The notes under the pieces are model-generated. The model saw only the letters and a program-made list of their open reading frames with translations. It had not been told where the DNA came from and ran no database searches. This document shows positions 3,557 to 33,223 of a stretch of DNA of 34,276 nucleotides, in pieces. Position numbers and translations under genes: made by a program. Location of the stretch: positions 80,185 to 114,460 of the forward strand of contig JACOYO010000003.1 in assembly GCA_016181845.1 (NCBI GenBank), given 5' to 3'. Each line of letters opens with the position of its first letter. Position 1 is the first letter of the stretch. The stretch comes from Parcubacteria group bacterium. Its GTDB lineage: Bacteria > Patescibacteriota > Minisyncoccia > Phycocordibacterales > 21-14-all-47-15.

Positions 3557-3584
3557 AAAACCTTTCGATATATCGAAAGGTTTT
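3557..3584. repeat. Perfect 28-bp palindrome with CGATATATCG centre after dprA
   Basis: Bases 3557-3584 read the same on both strands; the arms carry AAAACCTTTCGATA. It begins eight bases after the dprA stop and can form a hairpin ending in a short T-run, so it could act as a terminator on either strand. The centre CGATATATCG (3566-3575) recurs in palindromes at 3608 and 9545. Confidence 0.8.
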
Positions 3585-3714: not shown

Positions 3715-5934
3715 ATGCACACAAAAGAAGGAAAAAAACTTTTGATTGTTGAATCGCCGTCAAAAGCAAAAACAATTTCAAAATATGTCGGAGACGCGTA
3801 TGTCGTCCGCGCATCTGTTGGACACATTCGCGACCTTCCAAAAAATAATAAAAAAGCGATTGATATTGAGCGCGACTTCACGCCTCATTATGAAATCCCG
3901 AAAGAGAAACAAAAAATCGTAGATGAGCTCGCGAGCATAGCTGAAACTTCTGACGAAATCATTTTGGCAACCGACCCCGACCGAGAAGGTGAAGCAATCG
4001 CCTGGCATATCTCTCTAGCCCTGGATATCCCCAAGAAAGAGACCAACCGCGTGGTATTTCATGAAATCACGCAAAATGCCGTGCTGGAAGCGCTCAAACA
4101 TCCACGAAAAATAGACCAGAATCTCCGCAAAGCGCAGGAGGCACGGCGCGTGCTTGACCGCCTTGTCGGCTACGACCTATCGGGTCTGATATGGAAAAAA
4201 GTACGGTACGGTCTTTCTGCCGGCCGCGTCCAATCACCTGCGCTCCGCATCATTATGGAGCGCGAGCGTGAGATTCGCGCCTTTATACCAGAAGCATACT
4301 GGACCATCACCGCTATCCTTTCTGATGAGGCAAACAAAAAAGCGTCGGGGCTTCTTTCCACTTGTGTTGATGAGCCGAAGACCAAAACGGAAGCAGAGCG
4401 TATTGTCGCCAACGGAAAAAATGGGAGATGGAATATCACCGACATAAAAGAATCCGAGATGAAGCGCTCGCCAAAAGCGCCTTTCACTACTTCTACCCTC
4501 CAACAAGCGGCAAGCTCTCGGCTTGGCTTCTCTCCCTCGCGCACCATGGGCATCGCGCAAAAACTCTACGAAGCAGGCCACATCACTTACATGCGCACCG
4601 ACAGTACCACCTTGAGCAAAGAAGCGGAAGGCGCCATTGTTAAGGTCATCAATTCGGAATACGGAAATAAGTACGCAATGCCGCGGCATTATCAAACAAA
4701 AAGCAAAAACGCGCAGGAAGCGCACGAGGCCATTCGCCCGACAAACATGTCGCGCGCTTCGCTTGGCACAAATCCCGAGCAAAAAAATCTCTATGACCTC
4801 ATCTGGCGGCGAACCATTGCTTCTCAAATGGCCGATGCGATTCTCATGAAGACACGGATTACCGCGAATGTTATCGCGAAGTCTCATGATGGAACGATAC
4901 CTGATTTTACTCTCAATGGTTCTCGCGTGCTCTTTGATGGGTGGCTTCTTGCCGACCACGCGGCGCGCGGCGAAGATGTGCTGGTACCTGAAATAAATCC
5001 GGGGAATTCGCTCACGCTCCAAGAAATTAACGCGGAGCGCAAAGAAACAGCCCCTCCATCGCGGTATACGGAAGCAGGGCTCGTGAAAGAGCTCGAGAAA
5101 CGCGGCATCGGCAGACCGAGCACCTACGCGTCAATCATGAAAACGCTCGCCGACCGTGGCTATGTGACCAAAGAAGGACGAACTCTTTTCCCCACGGACA
5201 CCGGAGACGTCGTGAGCACTTTTTTGGAAACGCAATTCCCAACATATATCAGCGATTCGTTTACCGCCGAGATGGAAGAGGAGCTCGATGACATCGCGGA
5301 AGGCAAGCGCGAATATGCAAAAACACTTTCCGACTTTTATAAGCCGTTCCACAAAGAAGTTCTGTCAAAAGAAGACATAGAAAAATTGACCACGCTCGGC
5401 GATGCGCCGAAAGGAGTCCTCTGCCCAGTCTGCGCAAGCAATATGATTATCAAATTGGGGAAAAATGGAAAATTTTTAAGCTGTTCGCGATTTCCCGATT
5501 GCGCCGGCGCTCGTACGATTGACGGAAAAGAAATTGAACCGCCAAAAGACATCGGCGAACACTGCCCGAAATGCAAAGAAGGAAAATTGATGGAGCGCGA
5601 GGGACGGTTCGGCCGTTTTGTTGCCTGCTCAAGGTATCCAAAATGCAAGTATGTAAAAAAAGATGCCGCGACGGAAGCCAAAAATGACACTGGCATCCCG
5701 TGCCCCGTTTGCGGCAAAGGCAACATGACAGAGCGCCGCGGCAGATTCGGCATTTTCTTCAGCTGTTCAAACTATCCTGAATGCAAGCACGCGATTAAAG
5801 CGCGCCCGACCGGCGACCACTGCAAGCTCTGCGGAGCACTCATGATGGAAGGCACGAAAACTATTCCGGTACGTTGTAGTAATAAAGCGTGTCCCAACCA
5901 CAACCCGCACAAAATCAAAAAAGAGGAAAAATAG
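3715..5934 (+). CDS. topA: DNA topoisomerase I with four C-terminal zinc ribbons
   Basis: Type IA topoisomerase that relaxes negatively supercoiled DNA through a 5'-phosphotyrosine link. The 739 residues start with the TOPRIM domain (LLIVESPSKAKTISKYVG at 9-26; the DxD motif in ILATDPDREGEAIAWH near 83-98). The central toroid has LSAGRVQSPALRIIMERE and the active tyrosine in HITYMRTDST (Tyr292), followed by QEAHEAIRPT and GIGRPSTYASIM. The C-terminus from about residue 565 has four cysteine-rich ribbons (CPVC...CSRFPDC; CPKC...CSRYPKC; CPVC...CSNYPEC; CKLC...CSNKAC), which contact single-stranded DNA in homologues. It lies 165 bases after dprA with two palindromes in between. A weak TTGCAT/TATCAA promoter just before the ATG would give an almost leaderless mRNA. 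All catalytic motifs are intact. Confidence 0.97.
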   Translation: MHTKEGKKLLIVESPSKAKTISKYVGDAYVVRASVGHIRDLPKNNKKAIDIERDFTPHYEIPKEKQKIVDELASIAETSDEIILATDPDREGEAIAWHISLALDIPKKETNRVVFHEITQNAVLEALKHPRKIDQNLRKAQEARRVLDRLVGYDLSGLIWKKVRYGLSAGRVQSPALRIIMEREREIRAFIPEAYWTITAILSDEANKKASGLLSTCVDEPKTKTEAERIVANGKNGRWNITDIKESEMKRSPKAPFTTSTLQQAASSRLGFSPSRTMGIAQKLYEAGHITYMRTDSTTLSKEAEGAIVKVINSEYGNKYAMPRHYQTKSKNAQEAHEAIRPTNMSRASLGTNPEQKNLYDLIWRRTIASQMADAILMKTRITANVIAKSHDGTIPDFTLNGSRVLFDGWLLADHAARGEDVLVPEINPGNSLTLQEINAERKETAPPSRYTEAGLVKELEKRGIGRPSTYASIMKTLADRGYVTKEGRTLFPTDTGDVVSTFLETQFPTYISDSFTAEMEEELDDIAEGKREYAKTLSDFYKPFHKEVLSKEDIEKLTTLGDAPKGVLCPVCASNMIIKLGKNGKFLSCSRFPDCAGARTIDGKEIEPPKDIGEHCPKCKEGKLMEREGRFGRFVACSRYPKCKYVKKDAATEAKNDTGIPCPVCGKGNMTERRGRFGIFFSCSNYPECKHAIKARPTGDHCKLCGALMMEGTKTIPVRCSNKACPNHNPHKIKKEEK

Positions 5935-11228: not shown

Positions 11229-11376
11229 CGGGCCCACGAGGATTCTTTCCTTACAGGAACAGTACAGTTTTCGCATCGTGCTCGCTTCGCTCCGCGCGAT
11301 ATGCTCAAACTTTTCGAATCCTCACGCAAGCCAAATTGTTGGCTTGCTGTGGGCACTTCGTTCGCTTCGCTCTCTA
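11229..11376 (-). repeat. tRNA-tail element A, downstream of tRNA-Trp (type 1 core)
   Basis: Reading away from tRNA-Trp on the minus strand: a segment ending GCCCAC that complements the acceptor end; the 22-nt hairpin (11326-11347, stem GCAAGCCAA/TTGGCTTGC, loop of four); the inverted T-arm copy GAGGATTCGAA; the type 1 core AAAGTTTGAGCATAT...ATGCGAAAACTGTACTG; the small hairpin TTCCT-GTA-AGGAA; then a 17-base exact direct copy of the tRNA 3' end (CGGGCCCACGAGGATTC at 11229-11245, same as 11377-11393). The inverted and direct copies can close a stem around the core. Confidence 0.85.
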
Positions 11377-11447
11377 CGGGCCCACGAGGATTCGAACCTC
11401 GGTCAACGGTTTTGGAGACCGCTATTCTACCACTGAACTATAGGCCC
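11377..11447 (-). tRNA. tRNA-Trp (anticodon CCA)
   Basis: Acceptor GGGCCTA pairs with TGGGCCC; the anticodon arm GCGGT-CTCCAAA-ACCGT gives CCA; T-arm CGAGG-TTCGAAT-CCTCG. No CCA tail is encoded. It lies downstream of rpmG across a terminator, and element A follows it directly. A normal UGG-reading tRNA-Trp agrees with the standard code. Confidence 0.95.
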
Positions 11448-12931: not shown

Positions 12932-12974
12932 AGCGTTTTTGTGCGCGTTAGCTAACCTTACCAAAGAATACATT

Positions 12975-13058
12975 GCGTCGGTGGCGGAGTGGTCAATCGC
13001 AGCAGACTGTAAATCTGCCGGCCTTAGGCCTACGCAGGTTCGAATCCTGCCCGGCGCA
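12975..13058 (+). tRNA. tRNA-Tyr (anticodon GTA)
   Basis: Acceptor GCGTCGG pairs with CCGGCGC (one G-T pair); anticodon loop CTGTAAA gives GTA; a long variable arm (GGCCTTAGGCC region) as expected for tyrosine tRNA; T-arm GCAGG-TTCGAAT-CCTGC. No CCA is encoded. Element B follows directly. Confidence 0.96.
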
Positions 13059-13220
13059 TTCGGAGCGAAGCGGAGAATGAGACGGAGAAAGTCGCCTGCG
13101 CGACTTTCGTGCAGGATTCGAAAAGTTTGAGCATATCGCGCGGAGTCCAGTTCTCAAACCAGACGAGCACGATGCGAAAACTGTACCGTTCCTGTAAGGA
13201 AAGAATCCTGCCCGGCGCAT
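13059..13220 (+). repeat. tRNA-tail element B, downstream of tRNA-Tyr (type 1 core)
   Basis: Order: GGAGCGAAGCGGAG segment; 22-nt hairpin 13087-13108 (GAAAGTCGC/GCGACTTTC, loop CTGC); GT; inverted T-arm GCAGGATTCGAA (13111-13122); type 1 core AAAGTTTGAGCATATCGCG...GATGCGAAAACTGTACC with a longer central loop than element A; small hairpin TTCCT-GTA-AGGAA; 18-base exact copy of the tRNA 3' end, GAATCCTGCCCGGCGCAT, at 13203-13220 (original at 13042-13059). The AT-rich islet 13.3-14.4 kb begins just beyond this copy. Confidence 0.85.
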
Positions 13221-21881: not shown

Positions 21882-23153
21882 TTATTGTACAGGCCGGGCG
21901 TATTTTTTTAAAATGGCTGAAAGCGTCAATATCGTCTTGTCTATCTCTTTTTTTGTAGTTTCACGTCCCAAACTAAACCGCACCGAATTATCGGCGAGCC
22001 ACTTATGGCCGCCAAGCGCGGAAACCACATACGATGCGTCTTCGTCTTCACTTGAGCACGCGCTTTTTGCCGATACCGCGACGCCTTTTGCATCTAGTAA
22101 AATAACCATAAGCTGGCTTTCTATATTTGGAAAAGAAACATTTATATTATTTGGAAGCCGCGTAACACGTGATCCGTTAACTGTTGGACATCCGATGTCC
22201 AACAATTTTGTGATAAAGTAGTCGCGAAGTTTAGTTTGCCGTGCCGACTCTTTTTCAGCAACTGCGCGAGTTATTTCAATCGCTTTTGCCAAACCAACGA
22301 TAACCGGCACATTTTCCGTTCCGCTTCGCAATCCTTTCTCTTGCCCGCCGCCATAGAGCATCGGCACGAGTGGAACATTACGTTTTTTGTAGAGCACTCC
22401 GACTCCTTTCGGTCCATAGATTTTCGCGCCATTGAATGTGAGCAAATCAACGCCAAGCCGCTCAATATGCGCATCAAGATAATTCATCGCCTGGCACGCG
22501 TCAGTATGAAAATACGGATATCGGTTCAACTTGGACGTCGGGTTTCCAAGTTGACTTGGAAACCCGACGTCCAAGTTAGATTTTTCACTTAGTGGCTCAA
22601 CCACTAAGTGATTCTTTCTATGAAGGCGAATTATTTTTGCGATTTCGCGAATCGGCTGGATTGTTCCGATTTCATTGTTGGCATACATGATTGAAACAAG
22701 CACAGTTTCCGGACGAAACGCTTTTTTCAATTGGGCAAGATTTGCAATGCCTTCTTTATCTACGCCGAGGTAATCCACTTTCGCCTCGCCATTTTTTTCC
22801 AGCGCACGGCAGACATTAAGAACCGATGGGTGCTCAATCACGCTCGTAATGATGTGTGGCTTTTTTATTCCAAGCTCACGCGCCGCGCGAGCCACGCCGA
22901 AAATCGCCAGATTGTTTGCCTCCGTCCCGCCACTGGTAAAAATTATTTCATCTGGGTGTGCGAAAATTGCCCGCGCGATTTTCGCGCGTGAATCTCCTAT
23001 CGCCTTTTTTGCTTCCACACCTTTTTTATAAATCGCCGATGGATTCCCCTGCTCGCGAGAAAAATACGGCTTCATCGCGAGAAACACCCGCTTATCAAGC
23101 GGCGCGCCTCCGGCGTGGTCAAGATATATATTTTTTTTGGAAAACGAGCTCAT
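21882..23153 (-). CDS. Cysteine desulfurase (NifS/IscS-like) with in-frame palindromic insertions
   Basis: PLP enzyme that takes sulfur from cysteine for Fe-S clusters or thionucleosides. From ATG 23153 it has about 423 residues, some 30 more than typical. Seen: IYLDHAGGAPLDKRV start, IIFTSGGTEANNLAIFG, MYANNEIGTIQPI, the His motif YFHTDACQAMNYL, the PLP lysine in NGAKIYGPKGVGVLY, GGGQEKGLRSGTEN, and the active-site cysteine in SAKSACSSEDEDASYV. Just before the FHTDACQ motif, where family members have a short loop, the protein has about 28 extra residues (LVVEPLSEKSNLDVGFPSQL...) encoded by two perfect DNA palindromes at 22528-22611. A third palindrome encodes LDIGCPT before NGSR. An alternative start is ATG 23171. 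No IscU or ThiI gene is nearby. Confidence 0.93.
   Translation of the reverse strand: MSSFSKKNIYLDHAGGAPLDKRVFLAMKPYFSREQGNPSAIYKKGVEAKKAIGDSRAKIARAIFAHPDEIIFTSGGTEANNLAIFGVARAARELGIKKPHIITSVIEHPSVLNVCRALEKNGEAKVDYLGVDKEGIANLAQLKKAFRPETVLVSIMYANNEIGTIQPIREIAKIIRLHRKNHLVVEPLSEKSNLDVGFPSQLGNPTSKLNRYPYFHTDACQAMNYLDAHIERLGVDLLTFNGAKIYGPKGVGVLYKKRNVPLVPMLYGGGQEKGLRSGTENVPVIVGLAKAIEITRAVAEKESARQTKLRDYFITKLLDIGCPTVNGSRVTRLPNNINVSFPNIESQLMVILLDAKGVAVSAKSACSSEDEDASYVVSALGGHKWLADNSVRFSLGRETTKKEIDKTILTLSAILKKYARPVQ
22182..22204. repeat. 23-bp palindrome inside the cysteine desulfurase gene
   Basis: TGTTGGACATC, one central base (22193), then its complement. It is the reverse-orientation copy of the intergenic palindrome 21848-21874. 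Read in frame on the minus strand it encodes LDIGCPT, replacing the usual short turn before NGSR. Confidence 0.85.
22528..22577. repeat. Perfect 23-bp stem palindrome (TTGA loop) inside the cysteine desulfurase gene
   Basis: The left arm 22528-22550 (begins AACTTGGACGTCGGG) and the right arm 22555-22577 are exact complements around a four-base loop. It lies in frame and, together with the next palindrome, codes for about 28 residues that look inserted before the FHTDACQ motif. Confidence 0.9.
22585..22611. repeat. 11-bp stem palindrome adjoining the 23-bp one
   Basis: TCACTTAGTGG and CCACTAAGTGA flank CTCAA. It begins eight bases after the larger palindrome, within the same inserted segment of the reading frame. 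Confidence 0.8.
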
Positions 23154-25221: not shown

Positions 25222-25293
25222 GGCCACGTAGCCAAGTGGTAAGGCATTCCTCTGCAAAAGGAATATTCGGGAGTTCGATTCTCCCCGTGGCCT
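25222..25293 (+). tRNA. tRNA-Cys (anticodon GCA)
   Basis: Acceptor GGCCACG pairs with CGTGGCC; anticodon arm TTCCT-CTGCAAA-AGGAA gives GCA; T-arm GGGAG-TTCGATT-CTCCC. No CCA is encoded. It is the first tRNA of the cluster after rbfA. Confidence 0.96.
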
Positions 25294-25453
25294 CAAGGTA
25301 ACGGAGCAAAGCAACTGCTTGCTTTGCGTGGAGAATCGAAAGTCGGAGCGATGCCCCGCTCGCAAGCGGGGCCGCGAGACGGGCTCGCGAAAATTTTTCA
25401 TCAGAAAAATTATTCGTGAGCGATTCTCCCCGTGGCCTCAAGGTAACGGAGCA
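25294..25453 (+). repeat. tRNA-tail element D, downstream of tRNA-Cys (type 2 core)
   Basis: Order: GGTAACGGA; 22-nt hairpin 25306-25327 (GCAAAGCAA/TTGCTTTGC, loop CTGC); GT; exact inverted T-arm GGAGAATCGAA; type 2 core GTCGGAGCGATG with hairpins GCCCCGC/GCGGGGC and CGCGAG/CTCGCG and an AT hairpin AATTTTTC/GAAAAATT; then a 33-base exact direct copy of the tRNA 3' end plus 15 bases of its trailer (25421-25453, original 25276-25308). The next tRNA starts two bases later. Confidence 0.85.
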
Positions 25454-25536: not shown

Positions 25537-25587
25537 TAAGCGAACGAGTGGAGTATAAGCAATGTTAGTTAAAATTAAATAATACAT

Positions 25588-25610
25588 CCGCCCATAGCTG
25601 TCTTGGTAGA
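25588..25610 (+). pseudogene. 5' fragment of a tRNA-Lys gene
   Basis: CCGCCCATAGCT and TTGGTAGA match the start of tRNA-Lys(CTT) at 25655, but the D-arm between them is altered and nothing after the D-arm resembles a tRNA. It lies 67 bases before the intact gene and looks like a truncated duplicate. Confidence 0.6.
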
Positions 25611-25654
25611 AATCAAAAAGTAGTGGTAACATTTCTTTAAATATAAAAACATAT

Positions 25655-25727
25655 CCGCCCATAGCTCAGTTGGTAGAGCAACTGCCTCTTAAGCAGAAGG
25701 TCGTAGGTTCGAGCCCTACTGGGCGGA
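25655..25727 (+). tRNA. tRNA-Lys (anticodon CTT)
   Basis: Acceptor CCGCCCA pairs with TGGGCGG; anticodon loop CTCTTAA gives CTT; T-arm GTAGG-TTCGAGC-CCTAC. The first base is C, unusual but plausible. No CCA is encoded. Elements C, E and F follow in series. Confidence 0.94.
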
Positions 25728-25868
25728 CACGGAGCAAAGCGGAGTGTTTGCCCAAGCGAGCAAACAATTTTGCTCGCGTGTAGGGCGAGAAAAGTTTGAG
25801 CATATCCGCCTATGGCGGATGCGAAAACTGTACTGAATCTGTAAGATTCGAGCCCTACTGGGCGGACA
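25728..25868 (+). repeat. tRNA-tail element C, first after tRNA-Lys (type 1 core)
   Basis: Order: CACGGAGCAAAGCGGAG; GCCCA, complementary to the acceptor TGGGC; 22-nt hairpin 25756-25777 (GCGAGCAAA/TTTGCTCGC, loop CAAT); inverted T-arm GTAGGGCGAGAA; type 1 core AAAGTTTGAGCATAT and ATGCGAAAACTGTACTG, here closed by a perfect ATCCGCC/GGCGGAT stem; small hairpin AATCT-GTA-AGATT; 22-base direct copy of the tRNA 3' end at 25847-25868 (original 25708-25729). Confidence 0.85.
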
Positions 25869-25921
25869 AGCACGAAGTGATTGGACGGCCAGAGCAAGAC
25901 AACGGCTTGTCTTGCGTTAGG
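25861..25921 (+). repeat. 61-bp exact direct repeat, copy 1
   Basis: Bases 25861-25921 are identical to 26046-26106, 185 bases apart. The unit runs from the end of a tRNA-Lys acceptor copy (GGCGGACA) through the 22-nt hairpin to GTTAGG, marking the repeating module on which elements E and F are built. Confidence 0.92.
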
Positions 25922-26053
25922 GCTCGAAAGCCGTAGCGATGTTTTTGTTTTGCGGAGCGAAGAAGCGGAGCAAAGGCAAAAACCGCGAGGCGGGGCTGAT
26001 AAAAATTTCCGTTAGGAAATTTATTAGTAGCCGAGCCCTGACTTTGGCGGACA
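25869..26053 (+). repeat. tRNA-tail element E, second after tRNA-Lys (type 2 core)
   Basis: Order: trailer AGCACGAAGTGATTGGACGG; 22-nt hairpin 25894-25915 (GCAAGACAA/TTGTCTTGC, loop CGGC); GT; exact inverted T-arm TAGGGCTCGAA; type 2 core GCCGTAGCGATG with a TTTTTG/CAAAAA stem, CCGCGAG and an AT hairpin AAATTTCC/GGAAATTT; then an altered direct copy CCGAGCCCTGAC...GGCGGACA. This region to 26233 is the longest gene-free stretch and consists only of these repeats. Confidence 0.8.
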
Positions 26054-26106
26054 AGCACGAAGTGATTGGACGGCCAGAGCAAGACAACGGCTTGTCTTGC
26101 GTTAGG
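26046..26106 (+). repeat. 61-bp exact direct repeat, copy 2
   Basis: Identical to 25861-25921. After GTTAGG the two copies diverge at once into different cores (type 2 in E, type 3 in F), showing a sharp boundary between constant module and exchangeable core. Confidence 0.92.
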
Positions 26107-26211
26107 TTGAAAAGCGAATACATGGAGCTTTTCAAAACCTTTTGATATAGATTGCGAGTTTACGAGGCAATATATCCAAAAGGTGTACTGTTCCTGTAAG
26201 GAATCGAAAAG
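26054..26211 (+). repeat. tRNA-tail element F, third after tRNA-Lys (type 3 core)
   Basis: After the shared module and hairpin (26079-26100) comes a type 3 core: TGAAAAGC/GCTTTTCA (26108-26115, 26127-26134) with an 11-base loop; ACCTTTTG/CAAAAGGT (26137-26144, 26177-26184) enclosing ATATA/TATAT and TTGC/GCAA stems; then GTGTACTG and TTCCT-GTA-AGGAA. No tRNA 3' copy follows, so this end looks terminal or decayed. tRNA-Leu(TAG) begins 22 bases later. Confidence 0.8.
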
Positions 26212-32968: not shown

Positions 32969-33149
32969 ATTTGATACAGCCGGGGGGTTGAAATGCGAAC
33001 ACTTGGAGCATTTCAAGACCTTTTGAGAATTTTCATGAGTCTTGCGAAATGAAAAGTCCAAAAGGTGTACTGATTCTGTAAGAATTTGAACCCCACCAGT
33101 TCAGCGAAAGTGCCATCGGGCACTTTCTCGTCTGTACAAATACATTTGA
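32969..33149 (-). repeat. tRNA-tail element G in the 23S-5S spacer (type 3 core, inverted)
   Basis: It lies downstream of the tRNA-like gene on the minus strand. It has the 22-nt hairpin (33106-33127, GAAAGTGCC/GGCACTTTC, four-base loop), a T-arm-like piece, a type 3 core and a 15-base direct copy of the tRNA-like 3' end (ATTTGATACAGCCGG at 32969-32983 and 33144-33158). The core (TGAAATGC/GCATTTCA at 32989-33015; ACCTTTTG/CAAAAGGT at 33018-33066; GTGTACTGATTCTGTAAGAAT) matches element F but runs on the plus strand, opposite to the tRNA-like gene. Confidence 0.8.
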
Positions 33150-33222
33150 TACAGCCGGAGGGATTTGAACCCCCGTCTCCCAATCTTTTGGAAAAGGCGC
33201 TCTGCCATTGAGCTACGGCCGC
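33150..33222 (-). tRNA. tRNA-like gene with non-standard anticodon arm (possibly Gly)
   Basis: Acceptor GCGGCCG pairs with CGGCTGT (two G-T pairs), D-arm GCTC-AATGGCA-GAGC and T-arm GGGGG-TTCAAAT-CCCTC are good. The anticodon region GCCTTTTCCAAAAGATTGG does not form a normal 5-bp stem with a 7-base loop in any register I tried; CCAA-AAGA-TTGG could fold instead. TCC (Gly) or CCA (Trp) are the only plausible anticodons. No CCA is encoded. It may be a pseudogene or a processing signal within the rRNA operon. The position between 23S and 5S is uncommon. Confidence 0.55.
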
Positions 33223-33223
33223 A

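Follow-up and report, generated by a model that had tools for sequence, protein, structure and literature searches.

A recurrent hairpin behind tRNA genes of a Parcubacteria group bacterium is a module of a non-coding element with arms matched to the host tRNA

The hairpin that recurs in a 34,276-nt stretch of a Parcubacteria group genome (the window, that is, the whole stretch of DNA that was analysed) is one module, here called HP1, of a non-coding element of about 150 nt that lies downstream of tRNA genes. HP1 is taken, with confidence evenly balanced, to be the hairpin that branches off a small mobile DNA element, one that is non-autonomous and specialised in the 3' ends of tRNA genes and tmRNA genes. 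All seven hairpins listed by the initial annotation were confirmed in place, each with nine Watson-Crick pairs, a four-base loop with unpaired ends and no outer extension, and all of them lie inside units downstream of tRNA genes (Table 1). Perfect 9-4-9 hairpins number 12 in the window, compared with a mean of 0.27 and a maximum of 3 in dinucleotide-preserving shuffles. The observation that nearly all of them are followed by GT holds on the tRNA strand for six of the seven and fails for the hairpin at 33106, which is followed by GC. The geometry, described as invariant, proved to be only usual: nine pairs and a four-base loop were found in 65 of 79 model-found HP1 copies, the others having stems of 6–9 bp and loops of 3–8. 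Additionally, when 20 loci were picked by core sequence alone, with the hairpin not used and no alignment needed, a hairpin was found directly upstream in 20/20 (12 of them 9-4), compared with a perfect stem of at least 9 pairs in 0.025% of the control shuffles.

The modules follow one another in a regular order on the tRNA strand. Behind the tRNA stands a hairpin called HP0, followed by the acceptor 3' strand in reverse complement and then by A, HP1 and GT. Next come the 3' half of the T-arm, T-loop included, likewise in reverse complement, GAAA and an exchangeable core, and the unit closes with another copy of the T-arm 3' strand, this time in sense orientation and often extended by the acceptor. 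HP0 is either a short hairpin, often built around GCGAAGC, or a terminator-like hairpin. In core A, a TGTACTG-like linker joins HP2, whose variable stem contains an internal loop, to HP3, in which five variable pairs enclose GTA; core B is a different multi-hairpin block at the same place, found in the window in the second Lys unit and the Cys unit. Relative to the tRNA, HP1 falls at position 65/66, the boundary of T-stem and acceptor, with a one-base linker on its 5' side in 46 and a two-base linker on its 3' side in 48 of 64 elements. HP0, HP1 and the core are element-borne modules, and the complements of tRNA positions 66–72 and 54–65 match the individual host tRNA. These two blocks form one long inverted repeat with the 3' half of the tRNA, interrupted solely by A-HP1-GT; the T-arm block can also pair with the sense copy further downstream and so close a helix bearing HP2 and HP3. 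Most elements of the own genome lie between direct repeats that extend from the T-loop to the acceptor; several of the right tRNA copies measure only about 8 nt and some are without the acceptor. Elements stand behind many tRNAs, behind tmRNA and behind an intron-containing tRNA. Two tRNA genes (L036, on C7 near 106000, and L046) are apparently split by group I introns, and L046 also has an element.

Table 1. Elements behind tRNA genes in the window (window positions; R1 is the search that rests on core A).
Element	Span	Strand	tRNA	R1 match	HP1	Other parts	Right tRNA copy
Behind tRNA-Trp	11229-11376	-	11377-11447 (-)	11237-11347, 83 bits	11326-11347, then GT	HP0 and acceptor antisense 11348-11376; T-arm antisense; core A	direct repeat of tRNA 3' end, 11229-11245
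Behind tRNA-Tyr	13060-13219	+	12974-13059	13087-13211, 90 bits	13087-13108, then GT 13109-13110	HP0 and acceptor antisense 13060-13086; T-arm antisense 13111-13122; core A	direct repeat of tRNA 3' end, 13203-13219
Behind tRNA-Cys	25295-25453	+	25222-25294	weak (core B)	25306-25327 (+), GCAAAGCAA-CTGC-TTGCTTTGC, then GT	T-arm antisense 25330-25340; core B ~25341-25420	direct repeat of tRNA 3' end and trailer, 25421-25453
tRNA-Lys-CTT array, unit 1	25728-25866	+	25655-25728	25756-25858, 83 bits	25756-25777	core A	direct repeat of tRNA 3' end, 25847-25866
tRNA-Lys-CTT array, unit 2	25867-26052	+			25894-25915	T-arm antisense TTAGGGCTCGAA; core B	degenerate copy, 26033-26052
tRNA-Lys-CTT array, unit 3	26053-26208	+		26079-26207, 30 bits	26079-26100, same sequence as in unit 2	core A subtype	without intact copy
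Behind tRNA adjoining 5S rRNA	32980-33147	-	33148-33223 (-)		33106-33127, GAAAGTGCC stem	core A, reversed between its inverted arms	

The fit of the arms to the adjacent gene was measured in 64 elements for which a tRNA is annotated. The T-arm block agrees with the reverse complement of its own tRNA at a mean of 11.4 of 12 positions and the acceptor block at 5.6 of 7, compared with 9.0 and 3.6 for shuffled tRNAs, and no shuffle rose above 9.42 or 3.94 respectively. Of the 41 informative G.U sites of the tRNAs, 34 have an element base complementary to the 3' strand, none has a copy of the 5' strand and seven have another base, which shows the arms to be foldbacks and not remnants of a second tRNA gene; a tRNA pseudogene was rejected on the same ground, since the 5' strands of acceptor and T-stem are never copied. 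Recurrent tandem TC>GA changes are compatible with sheared G.A pairs. A different foldback element stands behind the tRNA at C2:15781 (L009) and behind the same tRNA in the congeneric genome G001; its arms copy the D-arm and anticodon region, not the T-arm, and it is kept in both genomes.

HP1 itself varies along another line. The 73 stems listed comprise 48 distinct sequences, with G at base 1 in 72 and A at base 4 in 67; the few fixed positions are the outer G-C, the fourth pair A-T and the flanking A and GT. Stem similarity tracks the genome (permutation p=0.0002) and not tRNA identity (p=0.15), in a list compiled by hand with some uncertain tRNA labels, a weakness that affects the test of tRNA identity more than that of genome. 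The suggestion that the stems resemble element-specific tags is therefore mostly wrong, and the tRNA-specific information resides in the flanking arms. On the other hand, the claim of a real recurrent hairpin with changed pairs is borne out, as both-sided changes were found at seven of the nine HP1 pairs in the first ten copies and one-sided changes at none. A first MAFFT alignment misaligned the stems, so the modules were aligned by hand with N padding; in the resulting alignment of ten core-A copies (A2), whose alignment to the structure makes its figures lean towards structure, 96.5% of 318 pair cells are paired, 22 of 32 pairs are changed on both sides (68 both-sided cells, no one-sided ones), and sliding the partners by 1–3 columns lowers pairing to 28–46%. 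Such covariation had been read as strong evidence for selected structure; care is needed in this inference because scarce G.U pairs, tRNA-copying arms and an inverted core are all also expected from template switching during replication (PMC8794818, PMC8604942), and part of the perfect pairing may be mutational and not selected.

The genome around the window, 742 kb in 11 contigs, has 26 R1 matches at E<=0.1, a search that rests on core A and hence undercounts core B and other units. Among 60 genomes of the order, 38 had R1 matches, between 1 and 31 apiece, and the same search detected no element in the other 22 relatives; a phylum-wide draw gave matches in 9 of 287 genomes, six of which, the own genome included, are of the same order. 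Named members of the Paceibacterota (Yonath-, Campbell-, Zambryski-, Taylor- and Nomurabacteria) have these cores as well, and the matches lie 6–60 nt behind a tRNA in nearly all of 64 measured cases. Presence and absence at orthologous sites, as in MITEs, was found between G000 and G001, a comparison of one congeneric pair in which G001 is 67% complete: the elements of Cys, Lys-CTT and Tyr are present in G000 and their sites are empty in G001, and the Gly tRNA at C5:46763 is empty in G000 and filled in G001. Trp and Ile tRNAs carry different units in the two genomes, the Glu tRNA has kept HP1 and core and differs in HP0, and the tRNA at 33.1 kb has kept the HP1 stem with a core of opposite orientation, the congeneric copy having the usual one. 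A unit with Val-tRNA arms follows an Arg-tRNA unit in G023, where a longer autonomous element was rejected because the right flanks run into ordinary genes. As judged from these sequence comparisons, units appear, disappear and replace one another at a given tRNA within the genus and cores can invert, and the family looks mobile, although neither a transposition event nor a product of excision or insertion was seen. Weaker relatives of core A (L061, L063, L065, L059) lie away from tRNAs within other long palindromes, that of L063 shortly upstream of an apparent EF-Tu gene. Several contig ends (C1, C2, C3, C4 and the start of C11) fall inside element arms or tandem units, where the palindromes probably break the assembly.

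As to the form in which the element folds, single-stranded DNA is favoured, with caution, owing to the scarcity of G.U pairs, the GTA loops, the stability of GCGAAGC and the terminator-like hairpins before the element. HP1 and HP3 together contain 11 G.U pairs and 13 mismatches in 1080 pairs, compared with 19 and 2 in 540 pairs of own-genome tRNA stems (p=0.002), a contrast that is approximate, as a single genome supplied the control and many genomes the element set. Every one of the 77 parsed copies has GTA as the HP3 loop. Among DNA hairpins, triloops of the GNA type with a sheared G.A pair form a class that extends from GAA to GTA. GCGAAGC, the frequent centre of HP0, is described as an extraordinarily stable DNA hairpin (PMC6582339, citing Hirao 1994). 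Caution is imposed by strand asymmetry under both DNA and RNA parameters, the tRNA strand folding better than its complement in 71 of 79 copies and, under RNA parameters, in 64 of the 75 copies that show a difference; tandem G.A pairs are also found in RNA, which counts against a DNA-specific reading. Even so, pair changes that are almost purely Watson-Crick and the invariant GTA triloops point to DNA folding and template-switch homogenisation rather than to RNA.

The strongest alternative is a transcribed regulatory or processing RNA, in which a tRNA-like 3' trailer with HP1 in place of the D and anticodon arms would compete with or assist tRNA folding, or would be handled by RNase P/Z, EF-Tu or a synthetase; it is considered unlikely. 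A tRNA-like RNA would be in keeping with the position of HP1, which lies at the branch point of a real tRNA and in most copies has linkers of one and two bases, and equally with the nested three-way junctions seen in RNA folds of the element, its location on the strand of the tRNA and the better RNA fold of that strand; moreover, elements that have no clear terminator may be co-transcribed with the tRNA. However, terminator-like hairpins separate tRNA or tmRNA from the element in many copies (for example at tmRNA), the pairs contain fewer G.U than tRNA stems do, and the T-arm antisense block pairs also with the T-loop, unlike in a tRNA. The uncopied 5' strand, the right copies that lack the acceptor and the 22 of 60 relatives in which the element was undetected also speak against this RNA.

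Under the preferred reading of a mobile DNA element, the functional fold would form on the single DNA strand of tRNA sense, exposed during replication or in a transfer intermediate, and units would be moved through their T-loop repeats by a host function in recombination or replication. Once a unit has arrived, its arms would be re-copied to the new tRNA by template switching across the imperfect inverted repeats, a step that would keep stems Watson-Crick perfect as their sequence changes, and the 9-4-9 hairpin would serve as a structure mark read by its shape and few fixed positions. Template switching in replication is known to produce reverse-complement copies and to perfect stems without G.U intermediates (PMC8794818), as well as to homogenise the arms of inverted repeats and invert spacers (PMC8604942). 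The same process acting alone at tRNA trailers, repeatedly making and perfecting inverted repeats without function or mobility, might explain the perfect pairing and leave the hairpins without function, and the perfect arms and the inverted core at 33 kb accord with it; it is nevertheless quite improbable as the whole account, as HP1 with its A and GT, the internal loop of HP2 and the GTA loop of HP3 recur behind unrelated tRNAs in dozens of families and local copying cannot place one core sequence at many separate loci. A mobile step would be needed to account for identical HP1 and core modules at many tRNAs, which template switching does not explain. The broader proposal, that these elements are a new class of mobile DNA that folds single-stranded, re-tailors its target-pairing arms to the occupied tRNA gene and can thereby colonise, as one family, a large part of a cell's tRNA genes without breaking them, with the 9-4-9 hairpin as structure mark, is tentative and somewhat doubtful.

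Candidates for the mobilising enzyme were sought among known families, and none was identified among RAYT, IS110 and reverse transcriptase. A RAYT/REP origin was rejected, as all five RAYT-like genes of the own genome are flanked by other palindromes; PF01797 (Y1) had no match in the element-rich genomes G005 (24 elements), G012 (14) and G032 (18), and its association with the element over 60 genomes is weak (p=0.05). An IS110 bridge-RNA element was rejected with PF01548 (DEDD transposase) absent from the own genome, G005, G012, G023 and G040 and found in 5 of 60 overall, and a retroelement or retron with PF00078 (reverse transcriptase) absent from the own genome, G005, G012, G023, G026 and G040, an absent Pfam match in a draft genome being no proof of absence. 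Their elimination leaves the ubiquitous Xer or another enzyme; at least one tyrosine recombinase is present in 58 of 60 genomes, which makes it uninformative as a marker. A recombination site that folds as a single strand, like integron attC or CTX-phage attP, used by host Xer or another recombinase with the T-loop repeats as exchange points, is very unlikely, for although direct repeats flank most own-genome elements, a Val-armed unit follows an Arg unit and element-rich genomes have such recombinases, Xer is equally present in element-free genomes, no gene cassette is seen and several right copies are only about 8 nt. An intrinsic terminator was rejected as well: HP1 is followed by GT and the T-arm copy, not by a U tract, and terminator-like hairpins stand instead between tRNA and element. 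Rfam 15 gave above its gathering score over the window solely tRNA, 5S and LSU rRNA, and nothing credible at seven loci at a relaxed threshold. Viral contigs had no exact core match, and blastn with one element each found no match in phages or plasmids.

The element shares features with several known systems. REP/BIME sequences with RAYT (Y1) are likewise short, dispersed, non-coding multi-copy palindromes thought to move as structured single strands, whereas the present elements are anchored at tRNA ends with tailored arms and RAYT was undetected in G005, G012 and G032. Integron attC and CTX-type attP also have a folded single strand, branch hairpins and a mirror repeat presenting a duplex recombination site; here there is neither integron integrase nor cassette genes, and the site has the sequence of the adjacent tRNA. 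Genomic islands and prophages at tRNA 3' ends show the direct repeat of the tRNA 3' end, the T-arm target and the intact tRNA, but the elements are without genes, hold inverted tRNA arms inside and use many tRNAs per genome. MITEs or PATEs of IS200/IS605 or other insertion sequences are equally small, non-autonomous, hairpin-bearing and patchy in copy number; no parental element was found, in a search that was not systematic, and the arms differ per locus and match the target. Template-switch quasipalindromes (PMC8794818, PMC8604942, PMC7202029) share perfect Watson-Crick arms, arm homogenisation and an inverted spacer, whereas in the tRNA elements conserved modules move with the palindrome. 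Small-genome Paceibacterota carry up to about thirty copies of a non-coding, tRNA-tied element for which no earlier description was found in the libraries and papers searched. Mobile elements normally have fixed ends, whereas here the recognition arms match each host gene, and the origin of such arms, by template switching or by guided insertion, is directly testable. Perfect compensatory covariation in metagenomic repeats may come from DNA replication and not from RNA selection alone, and the elements may explain assembly breaks at tRNA genes.

The five RAYT-like Y1 transposase genes of the own genome (L147–L151) have palindromes of their own, for example TTGGACATCGGATGTCCAA and TTCGGCTATCGCATAGCCGAA, and represent several separate REP/RAYT systems in one 742-kb genome. 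At 22528–22577 the window contains a long palindrome, GTTTCCAAG-TTGA-CTTGGAAAC, with 14 further outer pairs, that resembles the repeat flanking the RAYT gene of L150. Additionally, a decayed 5' piece of a tRNA-Lys gene lies at 25587–25613, between tRNA-Leu and tRNA-Lys. Three perfect hairpins, at 3560, 3609 and 9545, have the common centre CGATATATCG; two of them lie near each other upstream of a 739-aa ORF at 3715, and these hairpins are possibly operator sites.
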